A stretch of 52,697 bases of DNA, taken from assembly GCA_031260125.1 (NCBI GenBank), contig JAIRKM010000044.1:1-52697 (forward strand). The letters run 5' to 3'. This document shows, one piece after another, positions 2,202-19,024 of the stretch; positions within the stretch are counted from its first letter, which is position 1, and the number at the start of each line of letters is the position of its first letter. Source of the DNA: Helicobacteraceae bacterium. GTDB lineage: Bacteria; Campylobacterota; Campylobacteria; Campylobacterales; SZUA-545. The notes beneath the pieces were generated by a model, which ran no database searches, was not told the origin of the DNA, and saw only the letters and a program-made list of their open reading frames with translations. Both the position numbers and the translations under genes were made by a program.

Positions 2202-2396
2202 TTGCTGATTGACAGGAAAATGAAGAAAGGCGAGTTATGCAAAGTCGCTGGCATTAGTTCCAGCGTACTTCTCAAATTGTCCAAAGATGAGAACGTAAAT
2301 GTAGATATACTGACCCGAATATGTTATGCATTGGAATGTGACTTCCCAGATATTATGGAACTGGATCCAAATCATTGTGACGATATTGAAAAATAG
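2202..2396 (+). CDS. Small Xre/Cro-type HTH regulator
   Basis: The protein reads LIDRKMKKGELCKVAGISSS, then VLLKLSKDENVNVDILTRIC and ends with DFPDIMEL plus an acidic tail. This is the compact Xre-type helix-turn-helix common in Firmicutes (KxLxxxAGIS, LxKLxKxENV, LxxICxAL). In frame upstream of the TTG at 2202 the DNA encodes GVKYNKLFKL, the expected family N-terminus, but no standard start codon is present there. Either a non-standard start (ATA near 2178) is used or the N-terminus is shortened. Likely role: transcriptional control of the operon that follows. Confidence 0.7.
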   Translation: MLIDRKMKKGELCKVAGISSSVLLKLSKDENVNVDILTRICYALECDFPDIMELDPNHCDDIEK

Positions 2397-2467
2397 CTAT
2401 TTAATAGTTCAAAGTATTGCAGACAAGATTACTTTGCTTTTAATGAAAAGAATGGAGGAATTGACTG

Positions 2468-4264
2468 GTGTGGTGCAATAATTGCCACCGAGAAACGGCG
2501 AAAGAAAAATGTGAGCTTTGCGGAAAAAAGACCGAGCGGGAAGTCCCTCTCGAAATCTTTTGGTGCGGCGATTGCAGAGTGCCTATTATAAAACAGGCAG
2601 ATGCCATTGATAAGGATATATGCCCTACCTGTGGCGGGACGATTACTTACTTATGCGCGGATATGCGCCCCGTTTTTCCGGAGGAACGGCTACTATTTGA
2701 AATCATCCAAGGCAAACCTTTGGAGTATATGAATCGCAGCGTTTGGGCCGCTGACAACCGGTATTATATCGACGGGAAACCAGCGACGGTCTCAGCGGCG
2801 TTTTTCAGGAAGCTTCCACCCGAAGCTATAAGCGAGCAACTTGCTGAATACAAAGAGCAAAATGATTATACATCATTTAATGAAATGACAGCGCGTTTCA
2901 TTAAGGCTAACGCGAAGAGGCTCAGCGCCATCACCGCTGAAGCGCATACCTTCATCCACGAAACATCGGTATCTTATCCGATAGAGAACATAGTAGTATC
3001 ATTCTCGGGCGGAAAGGATTCAACGGTAACAGCCGACCTTGCTGTCAGGGCTTTGAGCGATCCGAGTTTGGTTCACATATTCGGAAACACCACACTTGAA
3101 TTCCCGCTGACATTGGAGTACGCCGCTCGTTACCGAAACGACAACCCAAAGGCAATTTTCAAGACCGCCGTCAATAAAGACCAAGACTTCTATTCGGTCT
3201 GCGATGACATCGGTCCCCCGGCGCGTATGCTCCGCTGGTGTTGCTCAATGTTCAAGACCGGGCCTATTACACGCGCAATGAATAGCTTGTATCGCGACCG
3301 TGAGATACTGACGTTCTACGGTATACGGAAATGCGAATCCCTCTCTCGGAGTCATTACACGCGGCTCACAAAGTCGCGTAACGAGGACAATGAGGGTAAC
3401 GTGGTCATAAACGAGTCTGTAAAGATACAGAAGCAAGCTGTGGCTTCTCCTATTTTCCTTTGGAAAGACGCAGACGTGTGGCTCTATATTCTCGGAGAGG
3501 ACTTGGATTTCAACGACGCTTATCGGCTCGGCTATGATCGCGTAGGTTGTTGGTGCTGCCCGAACAACAATATCAGGGCGCAGATACTGTCTCAAATATA
3601 TATGCCTGAGCAATCAAAGAAGTGGCGAGATTTCCTTATCGGTTTCGCCGAGCGAATCGGTAAGCCAGACGCGGAAGAATACATTGACTCCGGTGCGTGG
3701 AAAGCCCGTCAGGGCGGCAACGGTGTTGTGGCGGCTCAGGACATTCGTATACGCTACACTAACTGCACAACCGAGGACAACGCGAAGATTTACCAGCTTA
3801 ACAAGCCGATTGACGATACGTTTTCGGAACTGTTTATTCCGTTCGGACGAATTGCCCCCGAACTCGGTCGGAAGCTGATAAATGAAACCATTATCACCGA
3901 CATAAAGACGAATGTGCCAATTCTTTCAATACAGCCGCTTTCGCAAAGTGGATTTGACTATACCGTTAAGGCAAAGACGATGAACGTAGCCAAACACGAG
4001 GATTTGCAACGGATGGTCGGCTACCAGATACGCAAGTACAACGCCTGCCGCAAGTGCCTTAAATGCGAGTCGCTGTGCCGCTACAGGGCAATAAGCATAT
4101 CCGGAGGAGCGTACAGAATCAGCGATAAGCGCTGCCAGCGCTGCAAAATGTGTGTCACGGCGAAGTACCTTGACGGCGGTTGTCTGATGGGTAAGTACCT
4201 GAAAATGAAAGGCGAGCCGTTATCCGCCGAATTAAAACCGACCGCCGCAGACCGAAAGGGATAA
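2468..4264 (+). CDS. sspD: PAPS-reductase-family sulfurtransferase, SspD/DndC-like
   Basis: 598 aa. The N-terminus has two zinc-ribbon-like cysteine pairs (CNNC...CELC, residues 3-18; CGDC...CPTC, about 33-55). The ATP-pyrophosphatase PP-loop SFSGGKDSTV lies at about residues 177-186. Two further cysteine motifs follow, RWCCSMFK (about 256) and CWCCPNNN (about 362), which in DndC-type proteins bind a [4Fe-4S] cluster. The C-terminus has a ferredoxin-like cysteine cluster (about 525-575). By family it should adenylate the DNA phosphate and insert sulfur passed from the cysteine desulfurase. The start is GTG with AATGGAGGAA 8 nt upstream. It is the first structural gene and is followed 4 bp later by the DUF4007 gene, the usual phosphorothioation partner. 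Confidence 0.8.
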   Translation: MWCNNCHRETAKEKCELCGKKTEREVPLEIFWCGDCRVPIIKQADAIDKDICPTCGGTITYLCADMRPVFPEERLLFEIIQGKPLEYMNRSVWAADNRYYIDGKPATVSAAFFRKLPPEAISEQLAEYKEQNDYTSFNEMTARFIKANAKRLSAITAEAHTFIHETSVSYPIENIVVSFSGGKDSTVTADLAVRALSDPSLVHIFGNTTLEFPLTLEYAARYRNDNPKAIFKTAVNKDQDFYSVCDDIGPPARMLRWCCSMFKTGPITRAMNSLYRDREILTFYGIRKCESLSRSHYTRLTKSRNEDNEGNVVINESVKIQKQAVASPIFLWKDADVWLYILGEDLDFNDAYRLGYDRVGCWCCPNNNIRAQILSQIYMPEQSKKWRDFLIGFAERIGKPDAEEYIDSGAWKARQGGNGVVAAQDIRIRYTNCTTEDNAKIYQLNKPIDDTFSELFIPFGRIAPELGRKLINETIITDIKTNVPILSIQPLSQSGFDYTVKAKTMNVAKHEDLQRMVGYQIRKYNACRKCLKCESLCRYRAISISGGAYRISDKRCQRCKMCVTAKYLDGGCLMGKYLKMKGEPLSAELKPTAADRKG

Positions 4265-4268
4265 AAGT

Positions 4269-5150
4269 ATGAAGTTCAGGGCGCACGACACATTTTTCAT
4301 ACGGAAGGGTTGGCTCAGCAAGGGGCTGAAGAATGTCTTGCGAAACCCCTCCGTATTTGTCAGCAAAGACGAAAACCCGATGGACACGCTCGGCATCGGC
4401 GCGAACATGGTCAAGGCGCTTAGGTACTGGCTTCAAGCCGTCATGCTGACAACGGAGCCGGGAAGCGGCAGACGAACGCAGACGCTAACGCCGCTCGGCG
4501 ATCTTATACACAGGAACGACCCTTATATGGAGGAATTGGGGACGCTCTGGTTGCTCCACTATCGTCTTGCCTCTAATATTGAGGACGCGACCGCGTGGTA
4601 TTATTTCTTCAATGAGTTCAAGCCTACTGAGTTCACCCGCGATGATTTCAGCATCCAGATAAAAGGCTATCTCAGGCTGAACAATCAGGAAGAAGTATCG
4701 GAACGTTCGCTTGACGATGACTACACCTGCATTATCAATACCTATGTTCCAAGAATTAAGTCAAACCCGGAGAAGGTGCAGCCGGAGAGCAATATCGACT
4801 GTCCTCTCGGCGAGTTGGGCTTGATTGATATAGTCAATAAAAAAGCGAAGGTCTATAAAAAGAGCCAGCCTCAGAAAGACGCGTTACACCCGTTGATTCT
4901 GCTTGCCGTTATCATAGACCGAGCAGAGGGCGAGAAATCCGTGAGGATTTCAACGATTCAAAACGACCCGTTCAACGCGGGCAAGGTTTTTAACCTTGAC
5001 ATTATCGCGCTGACAAATTTGCTCTACAAGATAGAGTTGATGGGGTACGTCAAAGTGGTTCGAACTGCCGGGCTTGACATTGTCAGACTGGATACCGATA
5101 TGGGCTTTCTGGATTGCGTTGAAGAATACTACCGGCTTATAAATCGGTAG
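4269..5150 (+). CDS. sspB: DUF4007 protein, SspB-like nickase component
   Basis: 293 aa. It opens with FRAHDTFFIRKGWLSKGL, the FxGHETFxxRxGWLxKG signature of DUF4007, and continues with GIGANMVKALRYWL. DUF4007 is, to my knowledge, the domain of SspB, the nicking component of the single-strand phosphorothioation system SspABCD. The gene directly follows the PAPS-reductase-family gene and precedes the large ATPase gene, the order expected for sspD-sspB-sspC. The C-terminal half looks like a winged-helix-rich fold (ILLAVIIDRAEG, IIALTNLLYKIELMGYVKVV). The assignment rests on the N-terminal signature and the context. Confidence 0.75.
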   Translation: MKFRAHDTFFIRKGWLSKGLKNVLRNPSVFVSKDENPMDTLGIGANMVKALRYWLQAVMLTTEPGSGRRTQTLTPLGDLIHRNDPYMEELGTLWLLHYRLASNIEDATAWYYFFNEFKPTEFTRDDFSIQIKGYLRLNNQEEVSERSLDDDYTCIINTYVPRIKSNPEKVQPESNIDCPLGELGLIDIVNKKAKVYKKSQPQKDALHPLILLAVIIDRAEGEKSVRISTIQNDPFNAGKVFNLDIIALTNLLYKIELMGYVKVVRTAGLDIVRLDTDMGFLDCVEEYYRLINR

Positions 5151-5167
5151 ATTGACGAGGGGATTAT

Positions 5168-8100
5168 ATGTTCGCTGGGAAGATTGGTGTTGCAAAGGGG
5201 TTTCAGACTTCGGTCAACATCGCCTATGACCTGAATAATGACGATAAAGTGCGAGGATTCATTCCCACGCAGTCAAGTCTTGATGTTATCGAGGATATTC
5301 TTCTCTCGACGGCGCCTACCGCCGCGCAGAGGGCGAGAATACTGATTGGAGCGTATGGAAGGGGCAAATCCCACATCATACTTGTCTTGTTATCGCTGTT
5401 GTCAGGAAAAGATGAAATTCTATTCACGGCACTGCTCAATAAGATGGACAGCGTAAATCCGGAACTCGCCAGTTTTGCGCGGGAATATCTTCAATCTGGC
5501 AAAAAACTGTTGCTGGTCGTTGTCCGCGGAAGCAGTTCAAGCCTGTCATCATCGTTCCTGAACGCGTTGCAGTTGACACTCAATGACGAAGGGCTATCCG
5601 ATATTATGCCGGAGACCCATTTCCAAGCGGCAGTCAATGCCATTGACAACTGGCGCGAGAACTTCCCGGACACATATAGCCGTTTCGTGTCGGCGTTGTC
5701 GAAACCGGCAGAAGATTTTGTTATATCTCTGAAAGAGTATGACACTAATTCCTATTCTGTTTTTTCAGAGCTATATCCGCAACTGACTTCCGGGAGCGCG
5801 TTCAATCCGTTCCTCGGCTTCGATATAACAGAGCTTTATGAAAGTATTGCAAAGAAGGTCGAGTCTAATGGCTATGACGGAGTATTCGTCGTATATGACG
5901 AGTTCAGCAAATATCTGGAATCCAGCATCGCCAACGCTACTATCAGCGACATCAAAATGCTTCAGGATTTTGCAGAGAAATGTGACCGCAGCGGCGAATT
6001 GCAGATGCACCTATTGCTGATTTGCCATAAGGACATTGCCAATTATATTGACGGTGGGCTTCCGAAAGAAAAGGTAGACGGCTGGCGTGGAGTTTCTGGG
6101 AGATTCAAGCATCTGAACCTGCACAACAATTATGTTCAGATGTACGAAATAATTACAGCGGTTATAAGGAAAGAGCCGAAATGGTGGAATGGCTACAAAA
6201 GTAAGAACCGCGCCATGTTCGATGAATTGAAACACCGCTTCACCGGTAACAGGCTTTTGGACAGCGGCAACATATCTGAAATAGAAAACGCGGTATTTGG
6301 CTGCTATCCCTTGCACCCAATCTCCACATTCATCCTACCCCGGCTCTCTGAACGGGTTGCTCAAAATGAGAGGACGCTGTTTACCTTCCTCTCGACCGAC
6401 AACAAGTATACGTTGCCGTCTTTTCTTGATTCCGCTGATGACGCATTCCCTTTGCTCACACCTGATTATCTCTATGATTACTTTGAGCCGTTGCTCAGGA
6501 AAGAACCGTATACGAGTGAAGCTCACAAGCTCTATAAGTTGACTACTGCGGTTCTGCAAAAGGTTGAGGGGAATACTCTCGGGGCGAAAATCCTTAAAAC
6601 GATTGCCCTTATCTACCTTGTCGAGCAGTTTGAAAAACTGCCCCCGATAGTGGATATTATTTCGGATACATTCCGCGACAGCGTAGACGACGTTATGAGC
6701 ATCAATGACGCGCTCACCGAGTTGATTGAGAAAGAGTGTGTAGTATACCTGAAACGCAGCAACAACTATTTGAAACTGAAAGAAAGCAGCGGAGTAGATA
6801 TTCCTGGCGAGATTACCAGTCTAATCGAAAGCAAACGCGCCGTTTTGAGCGTCAAAGATATTCTGAACAATTCAGCGTTTGACAGCTATATGTACCCTAC
6901 GCGATACAATGATGAGTACGAAATCACGCGTTATTTTGATTTCACGTTTATCAGCGGCTCGGATTTTTGGAGTGTGGATAATTGGGACGCGTTCATCGAG
7001 GGGCGTGAGGCTGACGGTGTTGTGTTCGCCGTAATTCCCGAAACGGACGCGGACACGCAAAAAATAAAAAGCGCAATTTGTGAAGACGCTTGCGCTTCCG
7101 ACCGTGTGGTGTTCATTCTCCCGAATAAGTATGAGGATATAGAGAAAATAGCTTTTGATTACTATGCAGTAAGATGGCTTAGACTTGAAGCCGCTGGCGA
7201 CGACTTGCTTGCTGACGAGTATGACATCTACCTTGACGACCTGACGGAAGTCATAGGCGCATATATTAGCTCGTTTTCACGCCCTGAGAATGGTGCGGCT
7301 TCGTATTTTTACTGTAGCGAACAACGCCATATTTTCCGCAGGGCGCAGATGACGGAACTCCTCTCGAAAATTTGCCGTACTATATTCCATAGAACGCCTG
7401 TAATAAACAACGAATCCGTCAACAAAAACACATTGCCAACGATGGCTATAAAAAGCAGGACAAAGCTACTGTCCGGCCTGCTTGCTAATGAATTAGCCCC
7501 AAACCTCGGTCTAACCGGAACCGGGCAGGATGTTTCATTTATGAGGAGCACTCTAATTCAACCCGGAATTCTCATAGATGCAGAAACCGACCCTAAGCTG
7601 AACCTAACCCCCGACAATGAACGTGTAGCCAGTATGCTTGATACAATCAGGGGATTCTTACGCGGCGCAGGGAATAACGGCGGCAGCGGATTCCGGCAGC
7701 TTTATGATGAGTTGACACTGCCACAGTATGGTATCGGATTAAAGCGCGGTCTTATTCCGATTTACATCGCCGCCGTCCTGAGCGGCGAGAAACAGAACCT
7801 TGTCGTGCTGTACCGAAACAATGAAATAAGGATAACGCCCGACTTGCTGAACGATATAAATGAGTCGCCGGACGATTATTCGGTCATCCTCGAAAACTGG
7901 AATGAGGAAAAAGCCGACTATATGGCCGGACTTGAACGAATTTTCGGCGAATACGTCACTGAGCGTGAGAAATCGTATAACGGGTTTGCGTTCATACTCT
8001 ATGCGATGAACCGCTGGTATATGAACTTACCAAAATACGCCAAGGAGATGGACAAGCGATACGTCGGAAATGGTGAATTTGATAAGCTCGACTCTCAGCG

Positions 8101-8785
8101 GAAGAGATTCATAAACAGCCTTAAGCAGCTTGACATGAATCCACGCGAATTCCTGCTGGAAAAGGTGTTCAAGGTTTTTGCCATGGAGTTTAGCCCGAAC
8201 ATCCTCGCTATTATTGAGGAAACGAAGACCGAATGGGATAATGCTGTCTCAAACTTAATCGGTCGGTTGGGTGAAGATGTAAAAGTCACATTCGGGCAAA
8301 TGAATAACAATGGCAGTCTGGCATCAATCGTTAAGGACTGGTATGAATCTCTAAGTGAGCAGACTCTGCAATATCTGTTTGCGGGCAACGAAAACCGCAT
8401 ATTGAGACTGATGTCCTCTGTGCCAAACGATGAATCAACATTTGTCCAACGACTCGCCAAAGCAGTTACATCTTTGCGGATTGAGGATTGGAACGCAGAA
8501 ACAATCAAGGTGTTCCGGCGTGATTTAACTAGATTCAAGACTACTGTTGACGATTTCAGCCGCCAAAAACACGGCGAAGCTGAATCCGGGACGGATTTAT
8601 ACACAATCACATTCACCGGTTTAGACGGCGACGAAACAATGATGAAGTTCAAAAAGACGATAGTAAGCAAGCGAGCAAAGCTCCTGATGAATGAAATCAC
8701 AACTAGCCTTGAAGAAATGGGACAGGCTTTGACGATTCAGGAGAAGCGGCAAGTGCTTATAGAATTGCTGGAACAGCTATGCTGA
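5168..8785 (+). CDS. sspC: Large P-loop ATPase, SspC-like
   Basis: 1,205 aa. The Walker A is GAYGRGKSH (residues 61-69) and the Walker B is VFVVYDEF (about 238-245). The opening FAGKIGVAKGFQTSVNIAYD, followed about 40 residues later by the P-loop, resembles the large defence ATPases related to PglY/BrxC. In the SspABCD system the ATPase SspC energises sulfur insertion together with SspB and SspD. The gene lies between the DUF4007 gene and the desulfurase gene, 17 and 14 bp away, in a clear operon. No transmembrane segment or methylase motif is visible. A BREX assignment is unlikely because no pglX, pglZ or brxL-like gene is present. Confidence 0.7.
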   Translation: MFAGKIGVAKGFQTSVNIAYDLNNDDKVRGFIPTQSSLDVIEDILLSTAPTAAQRARILIGAYGRGKSHIILVLLSLLSGKDEILFTALLNKMDSVNPELASFAREYLQSGKKLLLVVVRGSSSSLSSSFLNALQLTLNDEGLSDIMPETHFQAAVNAIDNWRENFPDTYSRFVSALSKPAEDFVISLKEYDTNSYSVFSELYPQLTSGSAFNPFLGFDITELYESIAKKVESNGYDGVFVVYDEFSKYLESSIANATISDIKMLQDFAEKCDRSGELQMHLLLICHKDIANYIDGGLPKEKVDGWRGVSGRFKHLNLHNNYVQMYEIITAVIRKEPKWWNGYKSKNRAMFDELKHRFTGNRLLDSGNISEIENAVFGCYPLHPISTFILPRLSERVAQNERTLFTFLSTDNKYTLPSFLDSADDAFPLLTPDYLYDYFEPLLRKEPYTSEAHKLYKLTTAVLQKVEGNTLGAKILKTIALIYLVEQFEKLPPIVDIISDTFRDSVDDVMSINDALTELIEKECVVYLKRSNNYLKLKESSGVDIPGEITSLIESKRAVLSVKDILNNSAFDSYMYPTRYNDEYEITRYFDFTFISGSDFWSVDNWDAFIEGREADGVVFAVIPETDADTQKIKSAICEDACASDRVVFILPNKYEDIEKIAFDYYAVRWLRLEAAGDDLLADEYDIYLDDLTEVIGAYISSFSRPENGAASYFYCSEQRHIFRRAQMTELLSKICRTIFHRTPVINNESVNKNTLPTMAIKSRTKLLSGLLANELAPNLGLTGTGQDVSFMRSTLIQPGILIDAETDPKLNLTPDNERVASMLDTIRGFLRGAGNNGGSGFRQLYDELTLPQYGIGLKRGLIPIYIAAVLSGEKQNLVVLYRNNEIRITPDLLNDINESPDDYSVILENWNEEKADYMAGLERIFGEYVTEREKSYNGFAFILYAMNRWYMNLPKYAKEMDKRYVGNGEFDKLDSQRKRFINSLKQLDMNPREFLLEKVFKVFAMEFSPNILAIIEETKTEWDNAVSNLIGRLGEDVKVTFGQMNNNGSLASIVKDWYESLSEQTLQYLFAGNENRILRLMSSVPNDESTFVQRLAKAVTSLRIEDWNAETIKVFRRDLTRFKTTVDDFSRQKHGEAESGTDLYTITFTGLDGDETMMKFKKTIVSKRAKLLMNEITTSLEEMGQALTIQEKRQVLIELLEQLC

Positions 8786-8799
8786 GCGAGGTGATATAA

Positions 8800-9951
8800 T
8801 TGGATAGAACAGCTTACTTCGATAACGCGGCCACGACATTTCCGAAACCGGAAGCCGTTTACTCCTTCACAGATGCGTTTTATCGTGCCTGTGGGGTCAA
8901 TGTGGGTCGCGGTCAGCATAAGCCGGCCGCACGAGCTGCCGAGATGATCTCCGAAACACGGAGGCTGTTGCTTTCCCTTAACCAATGCCCAGCGAAAAAA
9001 ATAGTATTTACCCATACTGCGACGGAGGCACTCAATACTATACTGCGCGGAATCGGCTTGAATGACGGCTTTAATGTGTACGTCTCCCCATTTGAGCATA
9101 ATGCGGTGACAAGAATGCTTCATCATCTCCGCACTCTGTATAGGCTGAACGTAATAACTCTTGAGGTTGATAAAGCAAGCCTTATCTATGACTTGGAGCG
9201 GATTAAATATCAATTCGTGGACAAGCCGCCTCACCTTGTCGTTGTTAGCCATGCGAGTAACGTATGCGGGGTTGTTGCTCCAATTTTTGAAATCTGCCAT
9301 CTTGCCAAACAAAAGCACGCGAGGACAGTCATTGATATGGCGCAAACGATGGGGCTTATTGATACAGACCTCAGCACAGAGGACATAGATTATGCTGTTT
9401 TCGCCGGACATAAGACACTCTATGCCCCGCTCGGTATAGCAGGCTTTGTCTGCGCGGAAGATGCGGAGCTGGATCCGCTACTATTTGGTGGTACCGGAGT
9501 GGATTCGGCTAACCCGTCGCTTCCGGCAACAATCCCGGAGCGTTATGAGGTTGGAAGCCCGAATGTGATGGCTATCGCTGGATTGAACGCTGCGCTCAAA
9601 TGGGCTACAGGAATTGGAATAAAGGATATATTTTGCGAAGAACAGAAAAACCGACAGAGGCTGATTGAATTGCTGTCAGCTTACAATAACATTAGGGTGA
9701 TAGAACCAGTATCGGAGGCAATAGGGGTTGTCTCCTGCGTATTCAGTGGATATGGCAGTGACAGCATTGGGCAAATACTCAGTGATAAAGACGTGGCGGT
9801 CAGGACTGGCTTGCATTGCGCGCCCGACGCGCATAGGTTCTTGGGTACATTCCCTGCTGGGACAGTTAGATTCAGTGTCAGTTACTTCAATACGGACAAG
9901 GACTATGACATGCTTGTCGATGCGCTGAACTATATACAGGATAATTCGTGA
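8800..9951 (+). CDS. sspA: Cysteine desulfurase, SspA/DndA-like
   Basis: 383 aa, PLP-dependent class V fold. It begins YFDNAATTFPKPEAVY; the PLP lysine is K205 in FAGHKTLYAPLG and the persulfide cysteine is about C340 in VRTGLHCAPDAHR. This signature belongs to the Firmicutes-type desulfurase family (group II/SufS-like loop) and differs from the host NifS at 26971. It should mobilise sulfur from cysteine to the SspD-like protein. The start is TTG with GCGAGGTG upstream. Its place inside the operon makes the system independent of the host desulfurase. Confidence 0.85.
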   Translation: MDRTAYFDNAATTFPKPEAVYSFTDAFYRACGVNVGRGQHKPAARAAEMISETRRLLLSLNQCPAKKIVFTHTATEALNTILRGIGLNDGFNVYVSPFEHNAVTRMLHHLRTLYRLNVITLEVDKASLIYDLERIKYQFVDKPPHLVVVSHASNVCGVVAPIFEICHLAKQKHARTVIDMAQTMGLIDTDLSTEDIDYAVFAGHKTLYAPLGIAGFVCAEDAELDPLLFGGTGVDSANPSLPATIPERYEVGSPNVMAIAGLNAALKWATGIGIKDIFCEEQKNRQRLIELLSAYNNIRVIEPVSEAIGVVSCVFSGYGSDSIGQILSDKDVAVRTGLHCAPDAHRFLGTFPAGTVRFSVSYFNTDKDYDMLVDALNYIQDNS

Positions 9952-9965
9952 GCGGAGGGATATGA

Positions 9966-12152
9966 ATGAGTTTACAGAGTGTCGAGATAAAAAAAGAATA
10001 TCGCTCCTTTATTGATAATATCGTGAAAGATTTCTACACGCCTTTGCTAAAGGAAAGCACCATTTACAAACGTGCCGTGGGTTTCTTTTCCTCGTCCGCG
10101 CTAATCGAACTTACTCTCGGAATTTCCGGGTTGATTGAAAACGGCGGGAGAATTGAACTCATAGCTTCCCCTAAACTATCGGTCGAGGATATTGTCGCTA
10201 TCGAAGATGGGTTGGAGCGCCAAGATAGCATAATTGAAAGTTGTCTTTTGCGTGAAATAGTCAATGTAGAGGGCAAATTTGCGGAGGAACGTCTTAATCT
10301 GTTGTCTAATCTTATTGCTTCTGGGCGAATGGAGATAAAAATCGCCATCACTGAAAAAAACAACCAGATTGGTATGTACCATGAAAAAATGGGCCTGCTT
10401 TATGATGCTGATAACAATATCGTAGCTTTTACCGGCTCAATGAACGAGAGCGCGAATGCGTTCTCCCATAATTACGAAACGATAGACGTATTCACATCTT
10501 GGAGCGCCGATGAAGAACGTGTTTTAACTAAGCAATCGGCATTCAATGCGCTATGGAACGACTATGAACCACATATTCATGTGCGTCGTTTCCCAGAGGT
10601 GGAAAAACAAATAATACAGCGATACTCTCACGGAAAAACATCAACTAACAGTGAGAATGTAGCGCAGACTCCGGACATTGGGCCAGACGATGCTCCTGTT
10701 AAGCCTGACGGTATTTATCCTCGTGTTCCCGATAGCGTAAATATCCGGGAATACCAGGACGAAGCCATTAGGAATTGGGCTGACAACAATTATAGGGGTA
10801 TATTCGATATGGCGACAGGTACGGGTAAGACGTATACCGCTTTGGCCGCCATTTCAAATCTATACCAATATTCAGAGGAACGTCTCGCAGTAATTATCGT
10901 ATGTCCATATCAGCATCTGGTTGAGCAATGGAAAGATGACATTGAATTATTCGGTATGAAGCCGATTGTCTGCTATTCCGCATCATCACAGAAGAACTGG
11001 CGGGAAAGAGTGAAAAACTCCGTAATAGGATTCAATCTCGGCGTACTACGTCATTTTTGCATAGTAACGACCAACGCTACCTTTGCCACCAAATACTTGC
11101 AATCGCAAATAGATTTGCTGCAAGGCAATACACTTTTGGTTGTAGACGAAGCGCATAATTTCGGAGCGGCTAAACTGAGAAAGTTGCTTTTGGAAAACAT
11201 GAGATATAGGCTCGCTTTGTCAGCTACAATCGAACGCTACAGCGATGTAGAAGGCACAGACGCTCTGTTCGGATATTTTGGAAAGAAGTGCATTGAGTAC
11301 ACTCTAAAAGAAGCCATTGAGAATGATATGCTAACCCCGTATTACTATTACCCTATCGTTGTTGCATTATCAGATAATGAATTGGACGAATACCTAGACC
11401 TTACTAAACAGATAACGTCTGCGATAATGAAATCGCCGAAGAAGGACGGGAAACGGAAGCTTAGCACAGCGGCACAAATGCTCCTTATTAGACGAGCCCG
11501 GCTGGTGGCTGCTGCGATAAATAAACTCTCGAAGCTTGAAGAAGTCATTGCCGACCATATTAACGAAAAGCATATACTCATATATTGCGGAGCAACTACC
11601 CTGCGTGACTTGGACTATAAAGAGGGTGAACCGAATTTAGAAGATATTCGACAGATAGACGCAGTTTCTTCGTTACTCGGAAATAAACTCGGCATACGGT
11701 TTTCTCAATTCACGTCAAGAGAAAACGCGCAGGAGCGCGAAAGTATCAAGGTTGAATTTGCGGCGGGTAAGCACTTACAGGCATTGGTGGCTATCAGGTG
11801 TCTTGACGAGGGAGTCAATATCCCAAGCATTGAATCTGCTTATATCCTTGCGAGCAGTACGAACCCGAAAGAATACGTTCAGCGTCGCGGTCGTGTGCTT
11901 AGAAAGTACGAGGGCAAGCAATTCGCCAGAATTTTCGATTTCATTACTTTGCCTATCCCATTTGATAAGGTGCATCAGTATTCCGACGAGGTACTTAATG
12001 ATGTGAAATCTCTTGCCAAGCGGGAAATAACCCGAATGCTGGACTTCGCGGCTATCTCCGAGAACCCATCGGCGGTAGATACGTTAAAAAATGATATTAT
12101 TGAAGCCTATAGAATTTCAATCGAAGGAGGGCAAGACGATGGCGATTGGTGA
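9966..12152 (+). CDS. PLD-domain plus DEAH-box superfamily 2 helicase, candidate PT effector
   Basis: 728 aa. The N-terminal domain is phospholipase-D-like, with a single HxK motif in YHEKMGLLYD (about 138-147) and the downstream FTGSMNES. It is followed by a superfamily 2 helicase: ATGTGKT (about 282-288), VVDEAHNFG (about 392-400), LSATIERY and the motif VI stretch QRRGRVLRKYEG (about 638-649). PLD-helicase fusions occur in restriction modules, where the PLD part may cleave DNA. The start has GCGGAGGG upstream. It follows the desulfurase gene by 14 bp and is the first gene after the SspABCD-like core, so it is a candidate restriction or sensing component. Mapping to SspF or another named effector is uncertain. 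Confidence 0.75.
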   Translation: MSLQSVEIKKEYRSFIDNIVKDFYTPLLKESTIYKRAVGFFSSSALIELTLGISGLIENGGRIELIASPKLSVEDIVAIEDGLERQDSIIESCLLREIVNVEGKFAEERLNLLSNLIASGRMEIKIAITEKNNQIGMYHEKMGLLYDADNNIVAFTGSMNESANAFSHNYETIDVFTSWSADEERVLTKQSAFNALWNDYEPHIHVRRFPEVEKQIIQRYSHGKTSTNSENVAQTPDIGPDDAPVKPDGIYPRVPDSVNIREYQDEAIRNWADNNYRGIFDMATGTGKTYTALAAISNLYQYSEERLAVIIVCPYQHLVEQWKDDIELFGMKPIVCYSASSQKNWRERVKNSVIGFNLGVLRHFCIVTTNATFATKYLQSQIDLLQGNTLLVVDEAHNFGAAKLRKLLLENMRYRLALSATIERYSDVEGTDALFGYFGKKCIEYTLKEAIENDMLTPYYYYPIVVALSDNELDEYLDLTKQITSAIMKSPKKDGKRKLSTAAQMLLIRRARLVAAAINKLSKLEEVIADHINEKHILIYCGATTLRDLDYKEGEPNLEDIRQIDAVSSLLGNKLGIRFSQFTSRENAQERESIKVEFAAGKHLQALVAIRCLDEGVNIPSIESAYILASSTNPKEYVQRRGRVLRKYEGKQFARIFDFITLPIPFDKVHQYSDEVLNDVKSLAKREITRMLDFAAISENPSAVDTLKNDIIEAYRISIEGGQDDGDW

Positions 12153-12303
12153 GCAGGACTTAAACCCGAAGAAACTCGAACAAATGAAGGTGGAGATACT
12201 CAAAGCCGAACGTGAGAATCTCAAAACACGCGAGAAGTCAACGGACGCAATGATTGAATCACTTAGAAAAATCATTGTTACTGAGACAAAGAAGAACTTT
12301 TAG
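12139..12303 (+). CDS. 54-aa charged helical protein inside the defence operon
   Basis: The ATG at 12139 lies inside the end of the helicase gene (14-bp overlap) with a strong AAGGAGG 8 nt upstream, so translation is likely coupled. The product is almost wholly predicted helix or coiled coil: KKLEQMKVEILKAERENLK, then TREKSTDAMIESLRKII. No catalytic motif or Cys/His cluster is visible. It ends 11 bp before the SMC-like ATPase gene, which has its own GGAGG. I infer a small adaptor for the helicase or the SMC-like ATPase. I do not recognise the family. Confidence 0.7.
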   Translation: MAIGEQDLNPKKLEQMKVEILKAERENLKTREKSTDAMIESLRKIIVTETKKNF

Positions 12304-12314
12304 GAGGATGCAAA

Positions 12315-14300
12315 ATGCTACTGAAATCCTTAAAACTTGTGAATTTCAGGCAGTACAAGGGGGAAAAGACTGTTCACTTTTCCTGCGATGGTACACAAAC
12401 CGTCACCATCATTCTCGGCGACAACACCTATGGCAAGACTACACTGTTACAGTCGTTCAATTGGTGTTTTTACCAGACTGTATTGCTGCCTAACCCAAGT
12501 TTTCTTCTGAACTATGATGTTGCTGCTTCCCTGCCGGAGGGAAGTTCAACTGAAGTAGAGGTTGAAATCATCTTAGTTCACGGCGGGACTGAATATGTAC
12601 TTACCCGGACGCAGGAATATATTAAACGCGGCGGTACTGTGAATCCGCTTAATCCGCAAATGCGGATTTCATACAAAGAGCCTGATGGTCAAATGCAGCC
12701 TATTAAAGAAAATCGGCATGAGCATATCATTAACACGATACTGCCGAAAGACCTTTCGTCCTACTTTTTCTTTGACACTGAGCGCGTTAACTCCATAAGT
12801 ACAAAACGTGACCTCGATGATTCGGTTAAGGGTTTGCTTGGGTTGTCGATTTTACAAAATGCAATTGAACACCTCGGAAGCCAGTCAAGAAAAAAGAGTG
12901 TTATCGGGCAATTCTACGGAACAATGGACTTGGATGGCGACGCAAGAGCAAAAGATTCTCTTAATAAAATACAAGATGCCCAATCAAGGCGCGAGGCAAT
13001 TGCCGAACAGCTTGAAAACTGCGTTTCTGAGATAAACCACTACGATAACCGCAAAGAGCAGGTTGAGGCAGTTCTGAGAGACAACCAAAGCACTACTGTA
13101 CTGCAAAAGAAAAAGGAAGCTATAGAGCGTCAGATTGCCGCAGAGCAGACTGCACAAAAGCGGTCAATTAAAGCGCTGCGCTCCGATTTCAATGCAGGGT
13201 CACTCCATTTCTTTGCAGAGCCGCTTATAGCTAAGGCATCGGAGTTTTTGAAAAATGCTCAGATTGACGACAAGGGTATCAAAGACCTGACAAAAGTTAC
13301 ATTGTTGGACATCATTAAACGAGGCAAATGTGTTTGTGGCGCGGAATTGTCTGAGGGTTCGCAGGCACTTGAACACGTTCTTGCCGAAATTGCCTATGTT
13401 CCTCCTGAATCTATCGGAAATACTGTCCGTAATTACAAAGAACGTCTGGCAGCTTTTTCATCCACCAATGACAGGATTTTCGAGGGACTGACTACCCGCT
13501 ACGAGGAATTGTATCGCTCTAAAGCTCGTATACAGGAATGGAACGACGAGCTTGAAGAAATAAGCGATAAAATCAAAGGCAAAGACAGCATGGAAAAGTT
13601 CGAAAAAGAACTGATTGACATCAAAGGTCGGCTCCGTGACCTTAACGCCAAAAGAGAACGTCTCATAAGGGACGATGAAGCCAAGAAACAGGAAATAGAC
13701 CGTTTCCAGAAGATTTATGATGGCCTAATTGCTGTTTCTGGCAAAAACAAGGAAACAATGCTTTACATCCGCTACGCCGAGGAAATAGCAAGCTGGCTCT
13801 CAGCATCATTCAAGGAAAAAGAGCAGCTCATCCGCGAGGAACTTGAAGAACGTGTCAATTCAATATTTGAGCAAATGTACCACGGACACAGGCGTGTTTC
13901 GATTGACTCAAAATATCAGGTATCCTTACTGACAACTATTGATGATAAAGAGATTCAAACGGGTGAATCAGAGGGATTGAACCGTGTTAAGAATTTTGCG
14001 TTCATCGCTGGCCTTGTCGCACTTGCAAAAGATCGCATCGTCGCCGACACAGGCGGACACGATATTGATTTGTCTTCCGAACCATATCCGCTCGTTATGG
14101 ATGCTCCTTTTTCAAATGCGGACGAAATCCACACAAGCAATATTTCGAGGATATTACCGGAAGTCGCGGAACAGGTCATTATGTTCGTAATGCAAAAAGA
14201 CTGGCGGTACGCCGAACCAGTAATGACAGGTCACGTCGGAAAACGCTATTCTCTGATTAAACACTCTGAACAGTTCTCTGAGATAAGGGAGGCGCAATAA
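12315..14300 (+). CDS. DndD/SMC-like ATPase
   Basis: 661 aa. It begins LLKSLKLVNFRQYKGEKTV, with Walker A GDNTYGKT (residues 35-42). Two long coiled-coil stretches flank a CVCG hook-like motif (about residues 338-341), a variant of the Rad50 zinc hook. An ABC-type signature region (ESEGLNRVKNFAFIAG, about 549-564) and Walker B YPLVMDAPFSNADE (about 588-601) complete the head. This is the architecture of DndD and related RecF/SMC proteins in phosphorothioation loci. The start has TTAGGAGG upstream. In a Ssp-type locus such an ATPase belongs to the restriction side; in Dnd loci it belongs to the modification side. Which applies here cannot be read from sequence. Confidence 0.75.
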   Translation: MLLKSLKLVNFRQYKGEKTVHFSCDGTQTVTIILGDNTYGKTTLLQSFNWCFYQTVLLPNPSFLLNYDVAASLPEGSSTEVEVEIILVHGGTEYVLTRTQEYIKRGGTVNPLNPQMRISYKEPDGQMQPIKENRHEHIINTILPKDLSSYFFFDTERVNSISTKRDLDDSVKGLLGLSILQNAIEHLGSQSRKKSVIGQFYGTMDLDGDARAKDSLNKIQDAQSRREAIAEQLENCVSEINHYDNRKEQVEAVLRDNQSTTVLQKKKEAIERQIAAEQTAQKRSIKALRSDFNAGSLHFFAEPLIAKASEFLKNAQIDDKGIKDLTKVTLLDIIKRGKCVCGAELSEGSQALEHVLAEIAYVPPESIGNTVRNYKERLAAFSSTNDRIFEGLTTRYEELYRSKARIQEWNDELEEISDKIKGKDSMEKFEKELIDIKGRLRDLNAKRERLIRDDEAKKQEIDRFQKIYDGLIAVSGKNKETMLYIRYAEEIASWLSASFKEKEQLIREELEERVNSIFEQMYHGHRRVSIDSKYQVSLLTTIDDKEIQTGESEGLNRVKNFAFIAGLVALAKDRIVADTGGHDIDLSSEPYPLVMDAPFSNADEIHTSNISRILPEVAEQVIMFVMQKDWRYAEPVMTGHVGKRYSLIKHSEQFSEIREAQ

Positions 14301-14815
14301 TGTTTGAAAATGATTACACCTTCAATGGGAAACACGCCACATATATCAAATATCTTGTGGACGAAGCGAAACTCTACGAGAGATATATTGACGTGCTGAT
14401 GAATGGCGTTGTATTCGGCCTGCTCTACAATAGGACAAGCCAGAGAGATCGCGAATCTCAAGACAGAGCGCGCGTCTATGCCGACGCGTTCGCAAACTGC
14501 CGTGAAGATTGCATGTTCCTTTACCGAATGGTAATGCTACTTGATAAAAATGGCGACATGTCCGACGAACAAACCATAGATAGGGCGTTTCGCGATGACG
14601 CTGAAGGCTCGGAAAATGAGAAGGTCAAGGGAAATCTTGATGTATTCTTCTCCTATGTCTTGGGCGGTATTGAAGTCTTATTCGAGACGCTTACGGATGG
14701 GTGTACTGCAGAATTGGATTACATCGACAATGCCTTTGACAAGATGAAGTCGTTCCGTGAGGAAATAATGGGAGTTCGGCATGACGAAAAACTTTCTGAG
14801 CTTATAAGAAATTAA
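14300..14815 (+). CDS. 171-aa unrecognised partner of the SMC-like ATPase
   Basis: The ATG overlaps the stop of the SMC-like gene (TAATG), so expression is coupled. The protein reads FNGKHATYIKYLVDEAKLYE, then RYIDVLMNGVVFGLLYNRTS, then ARVYADAFANCREDCMFLYR. It looks all-helical and acidic, with no transmembrane segment. It does not match DndE (shorter, basic) as I know it. By position it could fill a DndE-like or effector-adaptor role. I do not recognise the family. Similar proteins next to DndD-like genes elsewhere would support a joint function. Confidence 0.75.
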   Translation: MFENDYTFNGKHATYIKYLVDEAKLYERYIDVLMNGVVFGLLYNRTSQRDRESQDRARVYADAFANCREDCMFLYRMVMLLDKNGDMSDEQTIDRAFRDDAEGSENEKVKGNLDVFFSYVLGGIEVLFETLTDGCTAELDYIDNAFDKMKSFREEIMGVRHDEKLSELIRN

Positions 14816-14832
14816 AATGGTCAAGGCTGAAT

Positions 14833-15963
14833 ATGTGGGCTTTTGAATTTGAAAACTTCAGCGATTCATTGTCCGCTTGTGATTTTTCGCAAGCGGCTAT
14901 AAATGTTTTCAAAATTCTCGGACTCACGGAGAGAACAAACCCTATATCGGCAGGAGAAACCGCTCTTTCGTTTGTGTATGAACATCTGCCATCAAACTTG
15001 GTTCTTACGCAAGAAGAACGTGAGATTTTGTCCGATATACTACAAATCGCCCATCTATTTGATGCTTCAGGGTTTATAGTTGAGGAACCGAGTTTTCGTT
15101 GCTTTTCGGTGGATTTGGGATTCAATCTGCTTGAACGTAGTTATGTCCAATACGCCGTTCACTCGATTATTGCGAGAAAATCCCACTACTGCTCTGCCGT
15201 GCTGTTCCGCAATCGAAATACGGTCTCCGTTTCAGTCGCGTATGACAAGGAAAATAAAAACCGTGCGATCTGTCTCTCGGATTGGTTTGAGTTAGGCAGC
15301 GAGGCAATGGAACAATTCGTTACAGAAGTTGGCTTGTCGGATTTCTCTTTGCACGACGGCATTGCTTTTGCGTGTGACCTTATTTACCAAATCGCGCGGG
15401 AATACTATATCCGCCCGCTATCATACGAATACTTGAAATATGAGCTTAATAGAGATGAGAACTATTTGACCGAATTAATTGAGAAGTACGGTGACGATTA
15501 TATCGCGGACGCATATATTGAAGCGATAAATACGAACATCGACACGTCAGATGAGATTGACTTTGACCTATTAGAGTACGAGTTAGAGCAAATGGAATTT
15601 CCAGAATCAGAGGACTTCGATGACAATGGTTTTGACGATAGCCCAAGCAGTTTCCCAACAGAGAGTATTCCCAAAGATGCCTTAGTTGACCCTGTGCTAC
15701 TGCTGAAGTGGTTGGATGAACACAGCCAAGAGAAAACCGAAAACGTAGACAAATATGACGAGACGATAGTGAGATTGATCCAAGCCGCCGGGATTGATTA
15801 CATAGACCACCGAGAAAAAGGCGGCAGTTTATGGATATTCGGCGGTTATGAATTGGCGGATTTTGTGAGCAAGCGCAAAGAATCCGGGTGCGAATTCCAG
15901 TTCAAAGAAGGCGGCGGCAAAGCGACTGGAGGCTTTGACGCTTGGTGGAGTAAAAGTTCTTAG
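14833..15963 (+). CDS. 376-aa unrecognised protein with a helicase-associated C-terminal domain
   Basis: The last gene of the operon, starting 17 bp after the 171-aa gene. The N-terminal 250 residues match nothing I recognise. A strongly acidic linker follows (EYELEQMEFPESEDFDDNG, about 250-280). The C-terminal 60 residues (IDYIDHREKGGSLWIFGG, then ELADF, then GGGKATGGFDAWW) resemble a small domain I recall at the ends of some defence-related helicases and nucleases (DxRxxGGxLWVxG...GGxATxxxPAWW). That domain suggests DNA or effector binding. No nuclease motif is clear. It could be the specificity or toxic subunit of the effector module. Confidence 0.7.
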   Translation: MWAFEFENFSDSLSACDFSQAAINVFKILGLTERTNPISAGETALSFVYEHLPSNLVLTQEEREILSDILQIAHLFDASGFIVEEPSFRCFSVDLGFNLLERSYVQYAVHSIIARKSHYCSAVLFRNRNTVSVSVAYDKENKNRAICLSDWFELGSEAMEQFVTEVGLSDFSLHDGIAFACDLIYQIAREYYIRPLSYEYLKYELNRDENYLTELIEKYGDDYIADAYIEAINTNIDTSDEIDFDLLEYELEQMEFPESEDFDDNGFDDSPSSFPTESIPKDALVDPVLLLKWLDEHSQEKTENVDKYDETIVRLIQAAGIDYIDHREKGGSLWIFGGYELADFVSKRKESGCEFQFKEGGGKATGGFDAWWSKSS

Positions 15964-16053: not shown

Positions 16054-16878
16054 ATGGCTAAGAAAGAAAGCGTCACTGTTCAAGGAATGGAAATCGCTGT
16101 TCTGACGCATCGGCAAGACGATTATATATCGCTGACGGATATGGCGAAATACAAAAATGCCGAGGCAACCGGGCTTGTGATTTCGCATTGGCTGCGGACA
16201 GGCTATACGATAAACTTTATGGGCGCGTGGGAGCGGTTTCATAACCCGGATTTTAATGTTACCGAATTCGGTAACATTAAAATGGAGAGCGTTGACAACA
16301 GCTTTGTTCTGACTACGAAGCAATGGACGGAACGAACAAACGCCATCGGCATAATCGCCAAGCCGGGACGCTACGGGGGAACTTATGCAAATCGCGACAT
16401 CGCATTTGAGTTTGCGACGTGGCTCTCTTTGGAATTCAAGCTGTACCTGATCACGGAATTCCAACGACTGAAAGAGGATGAGCAACAGAGACTGTCTCTT
16501 GAATGGAACTTGCAACGGACTCTTTCTAAGATCAATTACCGCATCCACACCGACGCGATAAAGGAAAAGATAATTCCACCCGAAGTCACGCGGGCGCAGG
16601 CTGTCGCGGTATATGCCTCGGAAACCGATTTGCTGAATGTTGCTCTGTTCGGCATGACCGCCGCCGAGTAGCGTATGCAAAACCCTGACAAACAGGACAA
16701 TGTACGTGACTTCGCGTCATTGGAGCAACTTGTCGTGCTGTCCAATATGGAGAGCATAAATGCCCTGCTGATTCGTCAGGGGTTGCCGCAGGGAGAACGG
16801 CTTGTCCAATTGAACAGTGCTGCGATAACGCAGATGAAATCGCTTGTCGGAAGTTCGCTGAAGAAGCGGTTGAGGTAG
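16054..16878 (+). pseudogene. KilA-N domain protein interrupted by an in-frame TAG
   Basis: It begins after AAGGAGG at 16054. The N-terminal KilA-N DNA-binding domain is clear (DYISLTDMAKYKN, LRTGYTINFMGAWERFHNP). The mid-region KYxGTYAxxDIAFEFATWLS is followed by RLSLEWNLQRTLSKINYRIH. At 16669-16671 a TAG replaces the tryptophan codon (AAEW) of this family, and the same frame continues to 16878 with IEQLVVLSNMES-type sequence (LEQLVVLSNMESINALLIRQ). One nonsense change therefore splits an otherwise complete gene. KilA-N genes of this type are common passengers of clostridial mobile elements. The truncated 205-aa product might still bind DNA. Confidence 0.8.
16250..16283. repeat. Perfect 34-bp palindrome inside the KilA-N gene
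   Basis: The half-site is TTTTAATGTTACCGAA (16251-16266), followed directly by its exact reverse complement; the outer A/T pair at 16250/16283 also matches. The centre is GAATTC with no loop. It encodes residues within DFNVTEFGNIKM, in the turn between the KilA-N domain and the next region. A perfect palindrome this long is not expected by chance in coding DNA. It may be an autoregulatory operator or a cruciform/recombination site. Confidence 0.9.
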
Positions 16879-17073: not shown

Positions 17074-17571
17074 TTACCGCCCCACGCGGTTGGCCTGCGT
17101 AACTCCCGTTCGGCAACCTCGGTTGATTGACGGCAATTTGTCTTTGTGTCCCTGTTCATTGAAATAGCGTTTGGCTGTTTGACAGAGAACGATGTCGGCG
17201 CGGTTGGCTTCATAAAACACCGGGTCTTTGCCCGACTTGATGTAAGCGCCGTAGGCGCTTCGGGTTTTGCCGTAAACCCCGATTTGCTTTTGCAGTTCGG
17301 CGATGGACTTTAGCTTCGCTTCGATTTCGCGGAGCTTGTTGTTCGTCCGGCGAAATTCACCCGACGCGGCGGAGGCGCGGCGTTTCAAATCGTCATACGT
17401 ATCGATGTTATTTTCCTTGACCGCCGTGAAGTAATCGCAGCCGTAGCTTTTGACGTACTCGAAGTTATTGCTTTTTTCGGGATTGTCCGTATAGCCGATG
17501 GTGTCAATCAGCGTTCGCACGACGCTTTTTCCCTTGCTCTTGTGGACAGGGCGTATCCAAGTTGTCGTCAT
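17074..17571 (-). pseudogene. Relaxase/mobilisation protein with internal deletion
   Basis: The start MTTTWIRPVHKSKGKSVVRT, then DTIGYTDNPEKSNN and YGCD, is the N-terminus of MobP-type relaxases of clostridial elements. After about 38 residues the sequence jumps to DDLKRRASAASGEFRRTNNK, then LREIEAKLKSIAELQKQIG and YGKTRSAYGAYIKSG, which belong near the C-terminus of the same protein. The catalytic histidine region and most of the enzyme are missing. The end (GCRTGVTQANRVGR) is out of family. The element therefore cannot mobilise itself. Confidence 0.75.
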
Positions 17572-17622: not shown

Positions 17623-17824
17623 TCACGCCGCTTCGATCGCCTCTAATCGATCGGCAAGCTCGCCAAAGACGCTACACATTTTTATGTGCTGGAGTTTAAG
17701 CGCGGCGAATTACCAGCGCCGATCCCAATTCCGCAAAAATCGCCACTCTAGGCGCGATCTCGCCGTAGGAAAGAGCCAGCGCCGTATCGCCGCTTTGAAC
17801 CAAATGCGAAATCTGCTGGCGCAT
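17623..17824 (-). pseudogene. Degraded host-type coding fragment beside the right junction
   Basis: From the ATG at 17824 the minus strand reads MRQQISHLVQSGDTALALSY, then GEIAPRVAIFAELGSALV. A shift of frame then gives FAALKLQHIKMCSVFGELAD and RLEAIEAA before a TGA at 17623. Composition and GATCG words are host-like. Two good half-frames joined by a shift suggest a decayed small gene or a fragment displaced with the repeat. The family is not recognised. Confidence 0.35.
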
Positions 17825-17861
17825 TCCTACATCACGGTCGCGTTGCGGTTGGGTTGCGGTT

Positions 17862-18539
17862 TTATGGGAGCAATGATTGGTAGTATGCTTTGGGCGTAAC
17901 GCCTTCGTATCTCTTAAAATGCCTAATAAAATGACTCTGATCGTAAAAGCCGCTATCCTGCGCTATTTCGGATATTAAATCGCGTTTAGCGCGATGTTTT
18001 GCTCTTCTTATTCTTTCTAATATGATATATCTATGCAACGATATACCAATTGCGTTTTTGAATAGGCGCGATATATGATCTGGGCTATAGCCCGCCTTTT
18101 TGGCGATTTGCGCGATCGTCAATCCATTAACGCTCTCTTCGTCGATATAACTAAGCAGATTGCCCGCAAAATCGCTTGTTTTGCGTTTGAAGTCGTTTAT
18201 AGCGTTCTTAATTGACTCTATTGCGTTTTTTACGTCAAATCCAACTTGGCTCAGATCGCTTGAAAGCGCGTTGTAATCAACGCTATCGTCAAGACAAATA
18301 GACAAAACGGAATAATTGGTTTTTGCCGTCGAATAACAAGAGTGCGCGGTAAATGGCGGAACGATAAACAGATCGCCTTTAACGCATTTTGTCGTTTGAG
18401 CGCCGACGGTTATATATTTTTCGCCGCGGCTAACCGCGATCGCGCATAATCGCTTATGAATATGCGCGGGAAACTTGCGCGCGCAATTTTCAAGCGCCAA
18501 TAATTCGTATTGCGATCGTTTAATAATTTTATAAATCAT
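17862..18539 (-). CDS. AraC-family transcriptional regulator
   Basis: 225 aa. The N-terminal half is a cupin-like sensor (AHIHKRLCAIAVSRGEKYIT, then GDLFIVPPFTAHSC). The C-terminal half carries two AraC helix-turn-helix motifs: LTIAQIAKKAGYSPDHISRL and RDLISEIAQDSGFYDQSHFI, followed by RHFKRYEGVTPKAYYQ. The ATG overlaps the stop of the upstream cupin gene by 4 bp, so the two are translated together. The ligand is unknown; the layout resembles small-metabolite-responsive regulators. The 3' end of this gene is duplicated at the left edge of the island. Confidence 0.9.
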   Translation of the reverse strand: MIYKIIKRSQYELLALENCARKFPAHIHKRLCAIAVSRGEKYITVGAQTTKCVKGDLFIVPPFTAHSCYSTAKTNYSVLSICLDDSVDYNALSSDLSQVGFDVKNAIESIKNAINDFKRKTSDFAGNLLSYIDEESVNGLTIAQIAKKAGYSPDHISRLFKNAIGISLHRYIILERIRRAKHRAKRDLISEIAQDSGFYDQSHFIRHFKRYEGVTPKAYYQSLLP

Positions 18540-18916
18540 ATTAAATACGGCGTAAATATCGCCAGCAAAACAACGCCTGTTTCGTCGGCCTTTACGCTAT
18601 GTTTTACGTTTGGCGCGATCAAAGAAATTACGCCTGTTTTATACGCGGCGCTTACGCCGTTTATAGTCGCTTCCGCTTGCCCGTAAATTACCTCGTGTAG
18701 CTCAAACTCTTGATCGTGAAGATGATCTCCTATTTTGCAACGCGGCTCTATTTTAACCAACATCGCGTTTATGCGCTTAGCGCTTTTGTCGTATGCGATC
18801 AAACTTTTCATATAAACGCCGTTAAACGTAGGATGCGGACGATAAAGCCCTTCGCCGCTTTCAACAAGCGACGCGCCGTTAATGTAAAGCGCCTCATTTT
18901 CAAACGCTGTTTGCAT
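18536..18916 (-). CDS. Single-domain cupin protein
   Basis: I choose the ATG at 18916 (MQTAFENEAL) because AAAGGA lies 7 nt upstream; an ATG 15 nt earlier lacks a comparable site. The protein has a cupin core, KIGDHLHDQEFELHEVIYGQ, with two histidines and a glutamate that could hold a metal, then APNVKHSVKADE with the late histidine. It overlaps the AraC-type gene by 4 bp (ATGA). It may be a small-molecule binding or isomerase-like protein that informs or is controlled by that regulator. The substrate is unknown. Confidence 0.85.
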   Translation of the reverse strand: MQTAFENEALYINGASLVESGEGLYRPHPTFNGVYMKSLIAYDKSAKRINAMLVKIEPRCKIGDHLHDQEFELHEVIYGQAEATINGVSAAYKTGVISLIAPNVKHSVKADETGVVLLAIFTPYLI

Positions 18917-19024
18917 GTTCGATCCTTTCAAATGCTTTGCGTTATATTACTTAGTTTTTGCGCCCCAAAATTGGACAAAAGCGCTCTTTTTACAAAGCCT
19001 CCTATTTGTAATTTAGCGCGCCGT

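Follow-up and report, generated by a model that had tools for sequence, protein, structure and literature searches.

The proteins SspA, SspD, SspB and SspC jointly place a phosphorothioate (PT) mark on one strand of DNA, and PbeC, PbeD and PbeA act on DNA that is unmarked; these are the established roles of the two families. Here, we describe a locus at positions 2202-15963 of a 52,697-nucleotide stretch of DNA from a Helicobacteraceae bacterium (contig JAIRKM010000044.1 of assembly GCA_031260125.1, hereafter the window), in which genes of both kinds are found together. With a probability of roughly 0.78, we regard it as a composite PT defence system, consisting of an SspD-SspB-SspC-SspA writing module, PbeABCD effectors and a Pbe-linked accessory gene, referred to below as gene 10.

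PT writing by SspABCD was shown in Vibrio (PMC8092258). The Pbe module has previously been described beside Dnd genes or alone. In archaeal Dnd-Pbe, antiviral action depends on PT and requires all four pbe genes, a PT-marked virus escapes, replication of viral DNA is blocked with no visible cleavage, and losing the PT mark is not toxic (PMC6459918). Rakesh et al. treat PbeD as a cognate of DndE and PbeC as a CxC-type ATP-binding cassette (ABC) ATPase, and hold that cleavage by PbeA must contribute (PMC10853773).

Like SspABCD-SspE and SspABCD-SspFGH, the window possesses SspA, SspB, SspC and SspD, including a DUF4007-type SspB and an Orc/Cdc6-like SspC, but it differs from them in its D-B-C-A order, its BrxP-type SspD with ferredoxin-type cysteines, and its PbeABCD effector. 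SspE was rejected as effector, as the genome encodes no DUF262 (GmrSD_N) protein, and no operon gene matches SspF, SspG or SspH models among the PADLOC matches listed, a search confined to the operon. With DndCDEA-PbeABCD of Haloterrigena jeotgali (PMC6459918), the window shares a PT writing module followed by PbeA-B-C-D in this order; its writer, however, is Ssp rather than Dnd, and an extra gene follows pbeD. The CxC ABC ATPase-DndE systems likewise unite a PbeC with a CxC hook, a PbeD of DndE fold, and a PbeA in which an HKD nuclease is fused to a superfamily 2 (SF2) helicase, although the accessible part of their description includes neither coupling to DUF4007/SspBCD nor a sigma-70-like partner gene (PMC10853773). 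Type 4 BREX (BrxPCZL, PMC12839542) resembles the locus in its BrxP-like SspD, DUF4007, BrxC-like SspC, desulfurase and, sometimes, helix-turn-helix (HTH) regulator, but the window has neither PglZ nor BrxL. In the open-access literature, we found no joint sspBCD-pbe locus and no link between a sigma factor and Pbe, and an earlier mention elsewhere is possible.

The predicted writing module and the Pbe effectors

The locus comprises ten plus-strand open reading frames (ORFs) over about 13.8 kb, all open without an internal stop, in the order HTH regulator, SspD, SspB, SspC, SspA, PbeA, PbeB-position protein, PbeC, PbeD and gene 10. Spacing is 71 nucleotides (nt) behind the regulator and then, in gene order, 4, 17, 14 and 14 nt, an overlap of about 14 nt between PbeA and PbeB (taking ATG 12139 as the PbeB start), 11 nt, a 1-nt overlap and 17 nt. 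Profile-search scores of the operon proteins lie far outside chance expectation. All active-site motifs of the Ssp and Pbe proteins are found in the window, and alignments with as many as 38 relatives show them to be invariant or nearly so.

As judged from these matches, the window encodes a complete Ssp-type phosphorothioation core. The predicted SspD (2468-4264) is a BrxP-type PP-loop sulfurtransferase (PAPS_reduct 1e-27; PADLOC BrxP 9.9e-70, SspD 2.2e-10) with zinc-ribbon-type cysteines at its N-terminus and ferredoxin-type cysteines at its C-terminus; SGGKDS and Cys 258/259, 361/364, 527/530/533/537 and 556/559/562 are kept in 30 of 30 relatives. It scores far under the cut-offs of assimilatory PAPS reductase profiles, and reaches 38.9 against the DndC cut-off of 290.4, so that it does not class as a DndC-type sulfurtransferase. 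SspB (4269-5150), the predicted DNA-binding and nickase component, is the sole DUF4007 protein of the genome (DUF4007 4.5e-85; PADLOC SspB 9.3e-61) and matches the solved SspB structures 6JUF/6LB9 (9.6e-27). SspC (5168-8785) is a putative BrxC-like P-loop ATPase, for which the SspC model (2.1e-118) beats the BrxC model (1.2e-49), and its GxYGxGKS and DEFSK motifs are kept in 31-33 of 33 relatives. The candidate cysteine desulfurase SspA (8800-9951; Aminotran_5 1.6e-69; SspA 3.3e-39) has its pyridoxal phosphate-binding Lys205 and catalytic Cys340 in all 34 relatives.

Downstream lies the PbeABCD module. PbeA (9966-12152; PbeA 1.7e-249; TIGR04095 1.7e-158) appears to be an HKD nuclease of the phospholipase D (PLD) type fused to an SF2 helicase. 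Its HxK(x)5D (H139, K141, D147), GSxN (G157, S158, N160), GTGKT, DEAH and RGR motifs are kept in 36-38 of 38 relatives; none of its relatives was found in viral contigs. The protein at the PbeB position (12139-12303, 54 residues from ATG 12139 in an ORF opening at 12091) is assigned by position and size: it matches nothing in Pfam or PADLOC, the PbeB model included, and has a single weak, unrelated NCBIfam match (0.0096), and homologues occupy the same place in many relatives. PbeC (12315-14300; PbeC 9.6e-120), a predicted CxC-hook ABC ATPase, carries CVC at residues 339-341, with both cysteines in 32 of 32 relatives and Walker A and MDAPFS kept. The 171-residue PbeD (14300-14815) matches the PADLOC PbeD model at 0.0055. 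Its structure model (predicted local distance difference test, pLDDT, 86.8) finds DndE as the top folds in the PDB (7X4E, probability 0.99; 4LRV, 0.82; E-values above 0.1), with a TM-score of 0.61 on the target, which agrees with the DndE-cognate view of PMC10853773.

An earlier note on this DNA had described ten intact co-directional genes at 2202-15963, with gaps and overlaps of at most 17 bp save the 71 bp behind the regulator, and the ORF check returned the same coordinates, count and spacing. The complete Ssp core that it proposed was recovered in the Pfam, PADLOC and NCBIfam searches: 4269-5150 is DUF4007, and 2468-4264, for which a match to an assimilatory PAPS reductase would have spoken against the proposal, is nearest to BrxP/SspD. 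Its PLD-helicase is PbeA, and its DndD-like SMC (structural maintenance of chromosomes) ATPase has to be corrected to a CxC-type ABC ATPase. The locus does hold effector genes, as the note had it, but these are not new in kind; they match the known PbeABCD module, and the locus therefore reads as an Ssp-Pbe composite. The 171-residue protein is now specified as a DndE/PbeD cognate, and the 376-residue product of the last gene as a new protein with a ZorC-like tail.

The first gene of the operon (2202-2396) encodes a putative HTH_26/VanU-like regulator (HTH_26 3.4e-14; VanU 3.8e-17, under the cut-off), and the same HTH occurs upstream of sspD in many relatives. Its conserved N-terminus, VKYNKLFK, is in frame at 2172-2204 with no ATG or GTG at the expected start, where relatives have ATG; the window offers only a TTG further in. 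It is probable that the regulator's N-terminus extends upstream of 2202 without a standard start codon. Just beyond gene 10, a KilA-N domain gene lies at 16054-16671 on the plus strand.

Pairing and exchange of the two modules

A scan for PbeA, sampling loci by PbeA similarity with one genome per species, yielded 39 loci. At 35 of the 36 with judgeable upstream sequence, ssp genes are present (L003 being the exception, and L009 counting by sspA alone), and in 27 of these 36 the order is exactly SspD-SspB-SspC-SspA-PbeA-PbeC-PbeD, with a small PbeB where detectable. The D-B-C-A order, which the earlier note took for a variant locus, is thus a widely conserved one. Most such loci belong to Clostridia, and others to metagenome-assembled genomes labelled Bacteroides, Thermoguttaceae and Methanobrevibacter. 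Different arrangements occur too: SspB-C-D followed by Pbe in an Alphaproteobacterium (L012), and Pbe followed by SspB-C in Saccharibacillus (L019). Two Alphaproteobacterial plasmids add further layouts: on the one from Rhizobium, SspA-B-C-D runs convergently with PbeB-C-D-A, and on the one from a member of the Sphingomonadaceae, the order is SspA-B-C-D-PbeA-B-C-D. The Ssp-Pbe composite is a widespread locus type.

Across 26 complete loci, protein distances correlate at 0.88-0.97 within SspD/B/C/A (0.88-0.93 for SspA against SspDBC) and at 0.85-0.93 within PbeA/C/D, as against 0.51-0.69 between the modules. SspDBC and PbeAC correlate at a rho of 0.58 (Mantel p 0.001); for DndCD and PbeAC, the value of Xiong et al. 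is 0.107 (PMC6459918). The modules have also been swapped between loci. In the Ssp tree, L002 falls with L007, L010 and L030; in the Pbe tree, it falls with the window and L029. In approximately unbiased (AU) tests, the clade of the window, L029 and L002 was rejected by the Ssp data (p 1.8e-40) and that of L002, L007, L010 and L030 by the Pbe data (p 1.9e-62), p-values that are optimistic because the groups were picked after the trees had been inspected; the likelihood differences, 253 and 610, respectively, are large.

Homologues of DndB (PF14072) lie near two Ssp-Pbe loci (L018:16679-17920 and L033:7411-8706), and similar-looking ORFs in L021, L028, L034 and L035; in the genome of the window, no DndB was found elsewhere. 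On a Treponema plasmid (L068:10141-20309), SspB-SspC-SspA precede a different effector set of a helicase, an ATPase and a PLD protein.

The gene after pbeD

In the relatives, the slot after pbeD is mostly taken by a sigma-70-like protein. Of 33 loci that could be read downstream, 26 encode one, 22 of them at a distance of -30 to +22 nt from the pbeD stop; in L022 it stands upstream of sspD. The scanned proteins carry Pfam Sigma70_r2 and r4, several of them also region 1.1. Their region 4 HTH is nearly unchanged (TRERIRQIE), and a cysteine-containing insert replaces region 3. Since their distances track PbeC (rho 0.95) and PbeD (0.90) and the Ssp proteins far less (0.52-0.60), these proteins belong to the Pbe module. 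Among defence-linked proteins, MzaA of the MZA system comes closest to them (3.9e-45), although MZA does not belong to the PT systems and gene 10 takes their place in the window.

An example of the usual kind is L006:13212-14357. At L038:14867-16182, a PC4-domain protein and a protein with an RNA polymerase alpha C-terminal domain (alpha-CTD) stand in the slot in place of a sigma-like protein. At L022:14964-17094 and L027:14915-15478, a region-1.1-like N-terminal segment is joined to other modules (a ZorC-like tail, leucine-rich repeats, DUF4357), and this segment looks like a reusable adaptor. Immediately 5' of pbeA, proteins of more than 1000 residues with sigma region 4 are encoded at L056:8921-12001 and L059:3018-6266, in Dnd-Pbe of Ruegeria and in solitary Lactiplantibacillus Pbe; the L056 protein has weak alpha-CTD/helix-hairpin-helix-like matches as well. 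A contig labelled Methanobrevibacter, an archaeon (L030), bears a sigma-70-like gene; to our knowledge, archaea have no sigma factors, and this gene may reflect mis-binning or another role.

In the window, the slot is occupied by gene 10 (14833-15963, plus strand; 376 residues). Its three nearest Pbe relatives, L029, L002 and L003, also encode gene 10-like proteins at this slot, and all four proteins have an alpha/beta domain at the N-terminus, a YGxDY motif, an acidic linker and a DPxxxLxWL-like motif. Gene 10 itself appears to consist of an alpha/beta N-terminal domain, the acidic linker and a ZorC-like C-terminal tail, the PADLOC match to the ZorC C-terminus (9.9e-05) covering only the last 65 or so residues. 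The tail is present in the window and L029, and in L022 behind the region-1.1-like segment. A Zorya component was rejected, as the ZorC body is absent and no ZorAB-like gene is among the ten operon genes; a diverged sigma factor was rejected likewise, at a probability of 0.1% in profile comparison with the sigma-like family. Profile comparison detected no homology to the 1026-residue Ruegeria sigma-like protein or to the Halococcus protein after pbeD, and no relatives were found in plasmids or viral contigs. The predicted fold is of low confidence (pLDDT 57), and Foldseek gave no match.

In our view, the slot protein would most likely act as a regulator or an invader sensor. More tentatively, and with doubts prevailing, one could propose that the gene downstream of pbeD supplies Ssp-coupled Pbe with a fifth core component, inherited along with it, which ties PT defence to the transcription machinery, and that an unrelated acidic protein, gene 10, took over the same task in the window's clade. 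If so, the slot protein might detect a phage taking over RNA polymerase, or direct the effector towards actively transcribed DNA.

Origin, alternatives and proposed action

The NifS and DnaX proteins of the window score above the thresholds of their models (TIGR03403, nifS_epsilon, 616 against 587.7; NF006280, 663.6 against 572), which points to a Campylobacterota genome. GC content is 0.52-0.56 in host genes and 0.44-0.50 in the island. At the left edge, 109-362 is host DNA, a shortened 97-98% copy of 17817-19108; the two form a direct host repeat flanking the island, the left copy being internally deleted between 9-bp TTTAGCGCG repeats. A genome of the same family shares 95% identity with bases 1-119, and relatives contain sequence that matches the right flank at 70-80%. 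A contig chimera or bin contamination is unlikely, with host DNA at both ends of the island. On the minus strand at 802-1848 lie remnants of a Firmicute conjugative element, namely a resolvase N-terminus (Resolvase 1.7e-13) and an SNF2 helicase fragment, 58-72% identical to Subdoligranulum, Monoglobus, Streptococcus and Cohnella plasmid proteins. A minus-strand ORF at 17074-17571 resembles, by eye, a relaxase N-terminal fragment, and has no Pfam or plasmid match. No true PbeA was found in 59 relatives, and among 396 other genomes of the class SspC occurs in only two, both distant (21-24%); the nearest relatives of the Ssp and Pbe modules are all Clostridia. Because of this rarity, the drop in GC, the element fragments, the Clostridia relatives and the host DNA on both sides, the locus was probably acquired from a Firmicute by conjugation.

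Such a transfer across phyla also raises the idea, unlikely in our view, of an orphan or decayed island whose genes are intact yet unexpressed or non-functional. PbeA of this kind in one of 60 genomes and a close SspC in one of 397 of the class (this genome in both cases), a regulator without a standard start codon and the broken element remnants around the operon would suit it; ten open ORFs with every motif intact over about 13.8 kb speak against it. The two modules might instead be independent defence systems that are merely neighbours in defence islands, with Pbe blind to the Ssp mark. Their differing, exchanged histories and the solitary PbeABCD on Lactiplantibacillus plasmids lend this something, but the single direction, the short gaps, the identical order in 27 loci, the several differently arranged pairings and the between-module correlation make it quite improbable. 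We give very little credence to a type 4 BREX system that has degenerated or been split, in which BrxP would have been divided into SspD and SspB beside a BrxC-like ATPase with BREX-like action. SspD is indeed nearest to BrxP, SspB weakly matches the C-terminal half of BrxP and SspC matches BrxC; yet the split is the rule among relatives, the operon has no BrxL, the SspC model outscores BrxC, and the lack of PglZ in the genome led us to reject it.

Several points weigh against the composite PT defence system as well. PbeABCD has been assayed only with the double-strand Dnd mark, and its reading of a single-strand Ssp mark would be an extrapolation. The assignment of PbeD combines a weak sequence match with a modelled fold, and gene 10 is without a homologue of established function. 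Moreover, as loci were sampled by PbeA, the pairing count gives the frequency of Ssp beside Pbe of this clade and not the reverse.

Reasoning from homology, we infer that the composite system modifies and polices DNA; the PT chemistry, the target motif, the defensive effect and what gene 10 does are drawn by analogy. SspA would draw sulfur from cysteine, and the BrxP-type SspD would activate it and pass it on. SspB would bind and nick the target strand, with the SspC ATPase powering the reaction, leaving a single-strand PT mark at some sites of the host genome. PbeC-PbeD, as an ABC ATPase with its DndE-fold partner, would then scan DNA, gene 10 may work with them as a regulator or invader sensor, and PbeA, as a translocating helicase and HKD nuclease, would stop an unmarked invader, most likely via a replication block. 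The conserved HKD motif of PbeA is compatible with block-only and cleavage views alike.

About 84% of sspBCD loci have no known adjoining effector (Wang et al., 2021; PMC8092258), and most pbeAC occur without dnd genes (Xiong et al., 2019; PMC6459918). The Ssp-Pbe composite would provide both orphan modules with partners in at least some of those cases, and the tight link of the sigma-70-like protein to PbeC and PbeD hints at a connection between the marking of the DNA backbone and RNA polymerase.

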